Virus record (IMG/VR): IMGVR_UViG_3300043540_000084
Location: 1-40,625 of that record
DNA length: 40,625 bases
Strand: one strand, 5' to 3'
Source: a virus
This document shows positions 4,073 through 25,902 of the stretch, in pieces. The first letter of the stretch is position 1, and every line of letters starts with the position of its first letter. The notes beneath the pieces were generated by a model. That model made no database searches, was not told the origin of the DNA, and saw nothing but the letters and a program-made list of their open reading frames with translations. A program made the translations under genes and the position numbers.

Positions 4073-4234
4073 GTGATTGCGATCTGCAACGAGACGGCAA
4101 CCGTGCGGCACGGCAAAGAGGAGACGCGGATGCTGCTGTCCGAGCTCTTGGAAGAGGACTACAAGTCGCAGGATCGCTACATGGCGAGCCTGTGGGAAGC
4201 GCTAAACAGCGGTGACGGTGAGTATAGACCATGA
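4073..4234 (+). CDS. Small unknown protein coupled to the methyltransferase
   Basis: An open frame of 53 codons from GTG 4073 (an ATG at 4130 is an alternative) ends in TGA 4232-4234, overlapping the methyltransferase ATG (ATGA). It is acidic and helical (MLLSELLEEDYKSQDRYMAS). The overlap argues that it is translated; the start is uncertain and the function unknown. Confidence 0.45.
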   Translation: MIAICNETATVRHGKEETRMLLSELLEEDYKSQDRYMASLWEALNSGDGEYRP

Positions 4235-5142
4235 CGCAACCGGCCGCCTATTACAACGAGATTGACCCCTACGCGGCCCAATGGCTGCGCAACCTGATTG
4301 CAGCCGGGCACATCGCGCCCGGTGAAGTAGATGAAAGGAGCATCATTGATGTTAGACCAGACGACCTGCGCGGATACACCCAGTGTCACTTCTTCGCAGG
4401 AATCGGCGTGTGGAGCTACGCGCTGCGAAGAGCCGGATGGCCTGATGACCGCCACGTGTGGACGGGCTCCTGCCCTTGTCAACCTTTCAGCGCGGCAGGC
4501 AAAGGAGCTGGGTTTGCTGACGAGCGGCACCTGTGGCCTGCATGGTTCCACCTCATCGAGCAGTGCCGCCCTCCAGTCCTATTCGGTGAGCAGGTTGCAA
4601 GCCAGGACGGCTATGCTTGGCTCGACCTTGTTCAAACTGACATGGAAGCAGCAGGCTACGCCTTCGGGCCGGTCGTTCTACCTGCTGCGGGCTTCGGTGC
4701 GCCGCACGGCAGGCACAGGATTTACTTCGTGGCCGACGCCGACAGCGCGCGATTGGAAGGACGGGGCGGCGTGCGAGAACGTTCCTATCAATGCGCTATT
4801 GGGGCGCGCTGTGTGGCTGGCGGGGTGGACAACACCCATGGCGAACGACGCGACCGGCAGCACGCACTGTTACGGGCCGAAGAAGCCGGATGGACAGCGG
4901 GCGGAGTATCTGAAACTTCCGGGGCAGGCGAACCTTTCGCAGCCAGTCCGGTTAATGGCTTCTGGCGAGATGCTGACTGGCTCTTGTGCCGAGATGACCG
5001 GTGGCGGCCGGTTGAACCCGGCGCATTCCCGTTGGCTGATGGGATTGCCGCCAGAGTGGGACGACTGCGCGCCTACGGGAATGCCATCGTCGCGCCAGTC
5101 GCGGAGGCGTTCGTGAAGGCGTCCATCGAGGGTATGACATGA
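4231..5142 (+). CDS. DNA (cytosine-5) methyltransferase
   Basis: A 303-residue C5-cytosine methylase, shorter than free-standing restriction methylases, as is usual in phages. Motif I is FFAGIG (54-59), motif IV is GSCPCQPFS with catalytic Cys83, motif VI appears as GEQV (119-122), motif VIII as [10 protein letters not shown] (157-166) and motif X as YGNAIV (282-287). The target-recognition region between VIII and X is short. It probably methylates phage DNA against host restriction. The start overlaps the preceding small frame and the stop overlaps the next ATG. Most of the gene is also open in the +1 frame (see 4349-5116). Confidence 0.92.
4349..5116 (+). CDS. Overlapping +1-frame gene inside the methyltransferase (255 aa)
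   Basis: Within the methylase gene a second frame is open for 255 codons. It has its own AAAGGAG (4334-4340) eight bases before ATG 4349. The product is not the basic, low-complexity junk typical of shadow frames: it contains [12 protein letters not shown] (128-139) and, near the end, [16 protein letters not shown] (222-237). From memory these signatures recur in phage proteins found beside or fused to cytosine methylases; that recollection needs a search. If real, 768 bases encode two conserved proteins on one strand. A helper or specificity role for methylation is inference. The alternative is that it is an unselected shadow frame. Confidence 0.6.
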
Positions 5143-5429
5143 ACCAATCCATCATCCTGACACATGAAGAACTCGCGGACATGATCCGCGACGCCGCCCG
5201 CACAGCCGCGCAGGAAGTCCTGCGGCAGATGCGCCCGTCGCAGGACGAAGGCGAGCTGTGGGACGCCAGGCAGATCGCGGAATACCTTGGACTGTCGGCT
5301 TACACCGTCTCGTACCAGCTCGCCTACCGGCGCGGATTCCCAACCGCGATCAGGCTGGGCGATGGACCCAAGGCAAAGCGACGCTGGAAGGCGGCGGAAG
5401 TGAGGGAATGGGCGGAGCGGAGGAAGTGA
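5139..5429 (+). CDS. Helix-turn-helix protein, excisionase/AlpA-like
   Basis: A 96-residue protein. After a helical N-terminus the C-terminal half is a MerR/AlpA-type winged HTH: LWDARQIAEYLGLSAYTVSY, then the wing RRGFPTAIRLG and the closing helix EVREWAERRK. Excisionases of tyrosine recombinases and AlpA regulators share this fold. Lying upstream of the integrase region in the early operon, it is a good candidate for the directionality factor. It overlaps the methylase stop (ATGA). Confidence 0.7.
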   Translation: MNQSIILTHEELADMIRDAARTAAQEVLRQMRPSQDEGELWDARQIAEYLGLSAYTVSYQLAYRRGFPTAIRLGDGPKAKRRWKAAEVREWAERRK

Positions 5430-5862: not shown

Positions 5863-6017
5863 CGCCACTAGAAGCGGTGCAGCGCCTTGTTGAGGCGGCC
5901 CGGCAGACCGGGCTGTCTCCCCATGGCGTCTGCGACGCCGTGCTGCGTGTGCGGCGCGCAGATGCGCTCATCTCTCAGTCCATGCGTCGCGCAATATCCT
6001 CCACCGACTCGCGGTAG
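5859..6017 (+). CDS. Small unknown protein (52 aa), tail overlaps the integrase 3' end
   Basis: Coupled by ATGA to the preceding gene, it encodes 52 residues (MTPLEAVQRLVEAARQTGLS at the start). Its last 43 bases run into the integrase gene on the other strand, so the early operon and integrase are convergent and overlap. Small and unrecognised; coding status moderate. Confidence 0.45.
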   Translation: MTPLEAVQRLVEAARQTGLSPHGVCDAVLRVRRADALISQSMRRAISSTDSR

Positions 6018-6994
6018 TAGGTCTGGTAGAGGATCCGCAAATCCCGATGCCCGGACACCCGGGCCAGCTGCATCACGTCCAGCTTCTTCGACAGCCGCGT
6101 GAGCGCCTCTGCCCGCGTGTCGTGGAAATGCAGCCCCTCCACCATCGCCCGGGCCTTCGCCTTGCGGAACAGCGCATCCAGCGTGCTCGCGTCCAGCCAG
6201 AACACCGTCTCACCGCTGCGCGGCAGTAGCCCGAGAATGCGCAGCGCCTCCCGGGAGAGCGGCACATCCCGCGCCTGCCGGGTCTTCCGCGCCCCACGCT
6301 CGATGGCAGCCACGTGCGCGATGCGCCGCTCCGCGTCGATGTCCTGCCAGCGCAACGCGCAGATTTCCCCGGCCCGCATCGCCGTCTCGATGGCCCACAG
6401 GAACGCCAGCCCGACCCGCCCCTGCGCCGTCCCGTAGTCGCTGCCGCAGGCGTGCAGGATGCGCTCGATCTCATCCTCCGAGACCCGGCGCGTCCTGGGC
6501 GGCGGCGCATCGGGGCGTCGCACCCCGCGCATGGGATGCTCCCGCAGCCAGCGCCACTCCCTGACCGCAGTCGAGCAGATGGCAGAGAGCAGATTCCACT
6601 CCCTGCGCACCGTCGCAGCCGACACATCCCGCAGACGACGATCCCGCCAGGCCGCGAAATGCTCCGGCCCCAGATCGGGCAGACGCACATGGGACAGCGG
6701 ATCCGCGTCCCGCCGTGTCCCATCCCGCCCAGGCTCGCCCAGTAGCACGGCAATGCGGATCAACTCCCAGCGTGCGCCGTCCTTCTTGGCCGATACGTCC
6801 TCCCGATAGCGCCGCAGCAGATCCGCGAAACTCTTGTCCGGCACCCGACCGAGCTTACCGGCCAGGATGTCAGCCTCCGTCCGCGCGGCCCAGGCGGCAG
6901 CTTCTGATTTCGTGCGGAACGATTCCGATATGTCATGCCCGTCTCGGCGCACGCGCACACGCCAGCGCGCGCCCCGTTTCTCGATGGTCGCCAT
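5975..6994 (-). CDS. int: Phage tyrosine integrase
   Basis: A 339-residue tyrosine recombinase that catalyses integration and excision at att sites. The start at 6994 is set by AGGAGGG just upstream and an N-terminus MATIEKRGARWRVRVRRDG typical of the arm-binding domain. A SAM-like core-binding domain follows (about 55-155). The catalytic set is complete: R207 in AMRAGE, K237, H291 and R294 in HDTR, H316 in SGHRD, and the nucleophile Tyr326 or Tyr327 in QTYYRES. It lies on the late-gene strand just downstream of the late operon and beside attP. Confidence 0.95.
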   Translation of the reverse strand: MATIEKRGARWRVRVRRDGHDISESFRTKSEAAAWAARTEADILAGKLGRVPDKSFADLLRRYREDVSAKKDGARWELIRIAVLLGEPGRDGTRRDADPLSHVRLPDLGPEHFAAWRDRRLRDVSAATVRREWNLLSAICSTAVREWRWLREHPMRGVRRPDAPPPRTRRVSEDEIERILHACGSDYGTAQGRVGLAFLWAIETAMRAGEICALRWQDIDAERRIAHVAAIERGARKTRQARDVPLSREALRILGLLPRSGETVFWLDASTLDALFRKAKARAMVEGLHFHDTRAEALTRLSKKLDVMQLARVSGHRDLRILYQTYYRESVEDIARRMD

Positions 6995-7016
6995 GCTCCC
7001 TCCTGTTGCGCCCGCT

Positions 7017-7231
7017 GGGACAATCAGCGGGACGAATTTGGGACACAGCCTAGCTACATTTGCCCAATTTGGGCAAGATGCTGCAAGCGTAGAAATGGGG
7101 CAAATACTTGAAACGAAAAGAAATGCGAGATTACGCGAGAAGTGCTTAAATGTATGGTGGTGCCCAGAAGAGGACTCCGAGATCACCTGGCGGCGCGGGT
7201 TTCAGGCGATTGTGGGACACGGATGGGACAC
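7017..7231. other. Probable phage attachment site (attP) with candidate arm sites
   Basis: On the minus strand, 7181-7155 reads GAGTCCTCTTCTGGGC followed by ACCACCA, which matches the T-stem, acceptor stem and CCA end of a tRNA (tRNA-Leu-like) but not a whole tRNA. This is what a phage att core looks like. It lies 160 bases upstream of the integrase start. Around it are five GGGAC(A/G) repeats: 7017, 7029 and 7040 on one side, 7214 and 7225 on the other, 11-12 bases apart, as arm-type integrase sites would be. A perfect inverted repeat, TTGCCCAA-T-TTGGGCAA (7060-7076), is between. Phage genes flank both sides, so the site is not split by integration. Confidence 0.65.
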
Positions 7232-24366: not shown

Positions 24367-25902
24367 TTAAGCCAGTTGGGTCGATTGGCGGTTGATCTGG
24401 ACGGATTGGCCGCCCTCCACGTTGATGAGGAACTTCTCGATGATGGACAGGTAGATGACCTTGACGTCGGCCTGCATGTAGCCCAAGGCGACGCGGGACA
24501 TGGGATTGTTCGCCGCGTCGATCTGGACGCTGTAGGCCGGGCCGCCATTGACCGCGCCGATCATCCCTTGCTGCTCCATGTTGGCGAGGAAGCTGCTGAT
24601 GGTCGCGGCGGCATTGCGGCGCACCGTGGCGCTCTGCAACTGGCCGACGAACAGGCCCATACCGGCGTTCAGGGTGTAGGCGATGTAGTTGGTCATGCGG
24701 GTGTAGTTATCCCCGTTCGTGACCGCGTTGCTGCTGGTGTTGTGGCCGAAGCGGACGCCAAACATGCTGCCAGCCGGGATTGGGTTCGTAATCACGTCGA
24801 TACCGGCCTGCCCCAGCGCCTGAAGTTCCGCGCTGCTGTAGGTCAGGTTCTGGTAGCTCTTTTGCGTGCCCACGATGCCGTAAAGCGGCTTGTTCAGGCT
24901 GGACTGTTCCGGCGACAGGTTCGCCAGACGGCCCGCGACGAAGCCTTGCGGCGAAATCATGCGAATCTGGCCGTTCACGGTGTCGTTGAAGTAGACCCAA
25001 TCACCGAACAGCAGCTTGGCCGTGTAGCTGTCGATGCCTGCGGTCGCCTTGGTGGTGATGGCGTTGCTTATCGAATCGCCGGCCGGGCCGGTCAGGATCA
25101 TGTAGATGCCCTCGGACAGGCCGAAAGCCACCTGATTCGACCAGGACGTGCTGTCGTCGCAGTCGGCCAGCATGGCGATGCTGGCATAGGTGCCGCGCAG
25201 CGCATACATGCCCTTGCGGGGAACGGTGTCCTGACCCAGCAGCACGGAACTGGTGATGCTCGTCGCGCCGTCGGTGCCACCTGCCAGGGTGTAGCTCGTG
25301 CTCGTCGGCGCGGCGGTTCCTGCGCCAGCGGTTGCGACGATCAACTGGGACGGCCCGCGCAGGCCGGATTGCCCGTTGTTGATGGCGGTCGCAATGGCGA
25401 CCCAGAGCGCGTTGCCGGACAGACCGGCTCCGATGTTGTCGAACACCTCTGGCACCACGCCCGGCATTGTGACAGTCGCCCGGTAGGTGCTGGCTTGGCT
25501 ACCCGCACCGATGCTGACGGAGAGGGCATTGCCCAGCGTCCCGGTGTACTTTGCGGTCAGCGTCAGGCAGTTGGTCTGCACGACCGCGCTGGCGGCGACG
25601 TCGGTGCCGTCGGTGACGCGCACGCAGCGGAAATTCGACGCGCCTTGCAGCACGGCGGCCGCGACTGCCGTGCCCATGTCGTATTTCCGGGCCTGGATCG
25701 CGCCGAACAGGCGGGCGTAATCGGCCATGCTGCCGACGATGGTGGGCGCGTTGACCGGCCCCCATGTGGCGGTGCCAACGACGCCAAGGATGTTGGTGGG
25801 CAGGCCATTGAGCAGCGTGACCTGGGGCGGGACGATCTGGACGTAGACATCCGGCACGATCAGTGCGGTGGTGTTGATCGAGCCTTGTTGAACGACTGGC
25901 AT
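24367..25902 (-). CDS. Contractile tail sheath protein
   Basis: A 511-residue sheath protein. Its N-terminal strand region is VPDVYVQIVPPQVTLLNGLP; VVGTATWGPVNAPTIV follows, then the variable beta domain, DWVYFNDTVNGQIRMISPQG, IDVITNPIPAGSMFGVRFGH, and the C-terminal NYIAYTLNAGMGLFVGQLQS domain that interlocks subunits. Its presence defines the virion as a myovirus. A strong terminator lies just upstream, so a separate promoter is likely. Confidence 0.93.
   Translation of the reverse strand: MPVVQQGSINTTALIVPDVYVQIVPPQVTLLNGLPTNILGVVGTATWGPVNAPTIVGSMADYARLFGAIQARKYDMGTAVAAAVLQGASNFRCVRVTDGTDVAASAVVQTNCLTLTAKYTGTLGNALSVSIGAGSQASTYRATVTMPGVVPEVFDNIGAGLSGNALWVAIATAINNGQSGLRGPSQLIVATAGAGTAAPTSTSYTLAGGTDGATSITSSVLLGQDTVPRKGMYALRGTYASIAMLADCDDSTSWSNQVAFGLSEGIYMILTGPAGDSISNAITTKATAGIDSYTAKLLFGDWVYFNDTVNGQIRMISPQGFVAGRLANLSPEQSSLNKPLYGIVGTQKSYQNLTYSSAELQALGQAGIDVITNPIPAGSMFGVRFGHNTSSNAVTNGDNYTRMTNYIAYTLNAGMGLFVGQLQSATVRRNAAATISSFLANMEQQGMIGAVNGGPAYSVQIDAANNPMSRVALGYMQADVKVIYLSIIEKFLINVEGGQSVQINRQSTQLA

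Follow-up and report, generated by a model that had tools for sequence, protein, structure and literature searches.

What does a second long reading frame do inside the gene of a phage cytosine methyltransferase? The window analysed here, a viral stretch of 40,625 nucleotides, carries a C5-cytosine methylase frame (alpha) and, wholly inside it on the same strand, a +1 frame (beta) that begins just before alpha motif I and runs over almost the whole of the methylase (Table 1). The window, in which matches to a RecE-like exonuclease (631-1878, +), a tyrosine integrase (5975-7186, −) and a tail sheath (24370-25902, −) were found, looks like a temperate phage with a contractile tail. Long same-strand nested genes for which selection has been measured in both frames are rarely documented, and for the nested frame described here a concrete, testable function can be proposed.

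Table 1. Features of the methylase locus and its two coding frames, in window coordinates
Feature	Position	Strand	Basis or remark
alpha: C5-cytosine methyltransferase frame, 303 aa	4231..5142	+	ORF; phrog_363 8.6e-92; PF00145 3.3e-17
beta: nested +1 frame protein, 255 aa	4349..5116	+	phrog_1008 / phrog_31772; 158/158 loci same phase
beta Shine-Dalgarno AAAGGAG	4334..4340	+	overlaps alpha Glu-Arg-Ser codons; sequence
alpha motif I (FFAGIGVW)	4390..4413	+	sequence; columns invariant/near-invariant
alpha motif IV, catalytic PCQ	4474..4482	+	P82 C83 Q84 invariant
alpha motif VI (GEQV)	4585..4596	+	G119 E120 Q121 invariant
alpha motif VIII (GAPHGRHR)	4696..4719	+	G156, R161, R163 invariant
alpha variable (TRD-position) region	4738..4953	+	neutral in alpha, constrained in beta; alpha predicted disordered
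alpha motif X (RLRAYGNAI)	5062..5088	+	L279 R280 G283 N284 A285 invariant
beta confident structural core: helix 70-90 + beta-hairpin 95-117	4556..4699	+	AlphaFold block pLDDT 82-91
beta TRD-like element	4730..4765	+	sequence; repeated in longer homologues; weak profile match
beta motif-IX-like element	5009..5059	+	conserved 90%+
next gene, HTH/excisionase-like protein	5139..5429	+	ATGA-coupled to alpha stop; context

Two genes in one stretch of DNA

Scans of viral sequence with either protein recovered 158 loci, and both frames are present in every one of them, always in the +1 phase, including the loci fetched by the methylase only; the phase is the same in 80/80 loci from bacterial genomes (mostly prophage), where the tally of stops pooled terminal with internal ones and is left aside here. 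When the methylase codons of 115 non-redundant loci are shuffled synonymously, 358 stops are expected in the +1 frame, whereas 15 are seen. At least 11 of these 15 lie upstream of the true start, between the two candidate ATGs (4331 and 4349) from which the +1 ORF could run to 5116. The same shuffle of the same loci gives no such deficit in the +2 frame (1635 stops seen, 1391 expected), and ten canonical chromosomal C5 methylases, taken as a control, show neither a deficit (115 stops, 119.9 expected) nor dual coding. In a distant set of loci, chosen partly by the nested motif, no stop is found where 76.6 are expected. A count anchored on regular expressions, which overlooks motif variants and serves as support only, likewise gives no stop from the core to the LMG segment (the C-terminal element of beta) in the 188 loci with both anchors and countable stops. 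In tblastn over 50,697 phage records, the two proteins give agreeing record counts per genus in those Gram-negative host genera that were listed for both. The claim of the earlier note that two real, long frames share one strand at this methylase is borne out by the constant phase and the missing stops: related phages do not commonly interrupt the inner frame.

Beta also appears to have a translation start of its own, as that note had pointed out: ATG 4349, which opens 255 codons, is preceded eight nucleotides upstream by AAAGGAG. Of 111 loci, 99 retain the homologous ATG, and 84 of these 99 have a Shine-Dalgarno match of at least four bases; in 11 loci an in-frame stop separates the 4331-type from the 4349-type ATG, all of which supports the start at 4349. 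For the alpha arginine that overlaps the Shine-Dalgarno, 45% of loci use AGG, compared with 8% elsewhere in the methylase frame. On the strength of this enrichment and of the conserved ATG, the sequences indicate that the nested start and its Shine-Dalgarno are under selection.

Among the 158 viral, 80 bacterial-genome and distant phage loci examined, no stand-alone relative of the inner protein was seen. The earlier note had counted a lack of homologues outside methylase-overlapping loci against the second gene; the lack is real, but it does not imply that the protein has no function, because selection on the inner frame can be measured directly.

Division of constraint between the frames

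With changes classed by their effect on both proteins, omega is 0.36 (0.27-0.50) for the inner frame and 0.38 (0.27-0.55) for the methylase, both being pairwise estimates that ignore multiple hits. Both frames are under purifying selection. Differences across 51 independent pairs fall on the three methylase codon positions in the proportion 38:23:40 within the overlap, against 17:13:70 in the stretch of the gene that lies 5' of the overlap.

Where in the gene does each frame carry its constraint? Over motifs I-IV, the methylase frame is strongly constrained (about 0.1) and the nested frame weakly; over motifs VI-VIII and IX-X, constraint rests on both frames in two alignments. In the variable region, which forms the target-recognition domain (TRD) of C5 methylases, alpha is indistinguishable from neutral (NS/SS 0.89, 0.69-1.18), while beta is constrained (SN/SS 0.41, 0.29-0.54). 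Bacterial-genome loci, analysed as a replicate of this region, point the same way, with a weaker signal in the inner frame (0.58-0.74). The neutral-looking value of alpha might also reflect a mixture of regimes, diversifying selection among them.

The earlier note is wrong in one detail, that the overlap lies mostly in the poorly conserved specificity region of the methylase, which would tolerate dual coding: the overlap takes in methylase residues 40 to 295 of 303, motifs I to X included. Nor do the results support the idea that the second frame lies mainly where the methylase tolerates it. Two of the motif blocks are constrained in both frames, and within the specificity region the frame free of constraint is that of the methylase, while the inner frame is held.

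A proposed methylase in two chains

Alpha has the hallmarks of a catalytic chain. Its PF00145 match covers residues 76-169, the catalytic signature is complete (PCQ, E120, R161/R163 and G283 N284 are invariant columns), and M.HhaI is the nearest fold in the PDB and the best structural match. The AlphaFold model is confident in the catalytic core and places no structure on residues 176-247 (pLDDT about 37-53). A folded TRD and a canonical motif IX seem to be absent from alpha between motifs VIII and X, where residues 176-247 are predicted to be disordered and evolve neutrally, and the alpha profile matches canonical enzymes in motif X alone. This lack leads us to a two-chain reading. Against it counts a conserved hairpin at alpha residues 249-261, which could itself recognise DNA.

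What, then, does beta resemble? It matches phrog_1008 (4e-34) and phrog_31772 (3e-30), whose label 'DNA methyltransferase' was, in our reading, taken over from the gene around it. Beta matched no family in Pfam or NCBIfam, a PDB sequence search with the inner protein returned nothing useful, Foldseek found no match for the beta model, and a Pfam scan of C-terminal pieces, which were probably too short, was uninformative. The AlphaFold model of beta has a mean pLDDT of 60, with a small confident core at residues 70-117 and low confidence otherwise, as might be expected if beta took up its fold in contact with a partner.

More can be read from the C-terminal element of beta, RLNPxxxRWLMGxPxEW, which is similar to C5-methylase motif IX. 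The methylase frame itself encodes the corresponding segment, PRLxxAFxEWMMGxPxGWVT, immediately ahead of motif X in one group of mycobacteriophages and a Rhodococcus phage, and in the mycobacteriophage group it is frame 0 that is constrained from motif VIII to LMG, and not the +1 frame. A profile of the LMG element from distant relatives in which it is nested matches this in-frame mycobacteriophage segment (probability 96, E 2e-9), and the segment in turn matches canonical motif IX-X (E 8e-5, with 0/60 column shuffles scoring as high). The window's own inner family matches canonical C5 small domains weakly (E 0.02-0.04), with its best local alignment in the TRD-like element and not in motif IX. 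That element is weakly similar (E 0.043) to TISARYYKDG, which precedes motif IX in canonical enzymes, a resemblance that is suggestive only. The case for a motif IX in the family of the window itself goes through this chain of profile matches, and beta looks like the detached small domain of the same enzyme, made up of a TRD-like element and motif IX. The suggestion of the earlier note that the partner may modulate methylation or protect DNA survives in its tie to methylation and becomes more specific.

We consider it quite probable that the two frames of the locus specify the two polypeptides of one C5-cytosine methyltransferase of the M.EcoHK31I type. Alpha would form the catalytic domain, holding motifs I-VIII and X but no canonical motif IX, and its TRD position would be an unconstrained, probably unstructured linker. 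Beta would carry one or more TRD-like WPTPxARDxKDG modules, followed by the motif-IX-like LNPxxxxWLMGxPxxW, and would dock on alpha to complete the DNA-binding cleft. In the resulting heterodimer, beta would be needed for enzyme activity and would probably set the choice of target; by methylating its own DNA, the phage may escape host restriction. A more far-reaching proposal, towards which we lean rather less than we lean away, is that catalysis and target recognition of one enzyme are split over two frames across much of the tailed-phage world. The nested frame would then be the true coding frame in the recognition region, the methylase frame there would merely supply a linker, and indels would move recognition modules between the chains, offering a route to a change of specificity.

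Several relatives are rearranged. In Mycobacterium phage Llama (L184, 1953-2787) and in L294, both frames are displaced together by one indel that lies between motifs VI and VIII; it divides the methylase into genes 74 and 75 and breaks the nested frame as well. Mycobacterium phage Jarcob (L179, 2296-3466) has its methylase divided between genes 69 and 70. The frame of gene 70 begins as the nested one and goes on to encode methylase motif VIII, LLPTP modules, LMG and motif X, so that the two frames trade roles inside the locus. A W/LPTPxAxD module of about 35 residues varies in copy number in Rhodobacter phage RcKeef (L168, 1805-2986) and in L186-L206; depending on the phage, it is encoded by the nested or by the methylase frame, and these modules might be modular target-recognition units. 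Dunaliella viridis virus SI2 (L172, 2294-2698) has lost the catalytic core from its methylase frame through a large internal deletion, and its nested frame retains one module and LMG; this locus is probably degraded. Prophage copies in an Arsenophonus endosymbiont (L244) and in L216 have stops or frame breaks in the methylase and/or the nested frame and appear to be decaying.

Could beta instead lie outside the enzyme, as an independent phage protein (for example an anti-restriction protein, a factor that regulates the methylase, or an effector aimed at the host) overprinted on the gene? Its own Shine-Dalgarno and start and the lack of a recognised fold or of a Pfam or NCBIfam family would agree with this; we nevertheless regard it as unlikely, given that beta never occurs apart from the methylase among the loci examined, that its C-terminal LMG element sits within the methylase polypeptide in mycobacteriophages, and that its constraint persists where that of the methylase frame is lost. 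Programmed ribosomal frameshifting, which would join the alpha N terminus to the beta C terminus and make the nested frame mainly a trans-frame domain, could draw on the occurrence of the same elements in one frame in Jarcob-like and other mycobacteriophages and on the splitting of both frames by the Llama-type indel, yet beta has a conserved Shine-Dalgarno and ATG of its own and a second shift would be needed to regain motif X, which makes it clearly the less probable of these two. A shadow ORF, held open by methylase codons and composition, is virtually ruled out: the GC content of the window (0.63) favours long spurious frames and many other long ORFs overlap in it, but the frame is open too in relatives at 0.40-0.45 GC (in the fetched stretch), and the synonymous shuffle, the codon-position spectrum and the two-frame omega refute it, with the +2 frame and the canonical methylases as controls.

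Breadth of the arrangement and comparison with known systems

The pair of frames is found in N15, in K1G-like, epsilon15-like, Rhodobacter, vequinta- and Krisch-type phages and in Paenibacillus fernviruses, and also in Lacticaseibacillus, Bacteroides, Porphyromonas, Microcystis and Lederbergvirus phages and in mycobacteriophages. Bacterial genomes from several phyla carry it as well, for the most part apparently within prophages. Within one order, the inner gene is present in 3/296 genomes, a distribution consistent with a mobile, phage-borne gene. The arrangement is apparently old and far more widespread among phages than annotations suggest, and its second gene is mostly unannotated or mislabelled as a second 'DNA methyltransferase'. 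A search of the open-access literature found no paper that treats the overlap as a family; as far as we found, its breadth across phages, the map of selection in two frames and the frame-swapped forms have not been remarked on before. If the two-chain reading is true, a codon-optimised alpha gene expressed alone would be missing a subunit, and assays of specificity and counter-defence would be misled.

How does the locus compare with what has been described before? PHROG 363, strongly matched by alpha, and PHROGs 1008 and 31772, strongly matched by beta, are labelled simply as DNA methyltransferases, and the family descriptions seen do not mention the overlap. The ShiLan domain, a hidden HNH endonuclease, is likewise an out-of-frame protein concealed in a phage methylase gene (PMC11855218). 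It is a homing insertion, whereas the nested frame of the window uses the methylase core; an HNH or homing insertion of the ShiLan type was rejected here, since no HNH family matched and the second reading frame extends across the core motifs. Depositors have occasionally marked the second gene: Paenibacillus phage Rani gp51, annotated as 'g50 internal gene', and Escherichia phage K1G ORF30, annotated as 'Mte8-like', have the same arrangement, for which the literature searched contained no analysis of function or selection.

The system that gives our preferred reading its type is M.EcoHK31I, whose small chain is, according to what Lee, Kam and Shaw reportedly described in 1995, encoded inside the large one in another frame; the second chain in the window also lies within the first, in another frame. 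M.EcoHK31I belongs to a restriction-modification system and has a beta chain of about 176 residues, whereas the window's system is phage-borne and its beta is 255 residues long. In M.EcoHK31I, which acts on YGGCCR, the large chain holds motifs I-VIII and X, and motif IX is found in the small polypeptide alone (PMC3404938). The window resembles it in layout, with two polypeptides and motifs I-VIII and X in alpha. The two differ in a point that counts against our reading: the predicted TRD of M.EcoHK31I was placed in the large subunit (PMC3404938), while the TRD region of alpha in the window is neutral and predicted to be disordered. M.AquI is also a split C5 methylase, with part of the variable region and motif IX in its second chain (PMC3404938). 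Its small chain holds motif X as well; here, in contrast, motif X lies in alpha, and a single stretch of DNA encodes both chains. Finally, fragments of naturally monomeric C5 methylases complement each other (PMC3404938), which makes a working enzyme of two chains plausible.
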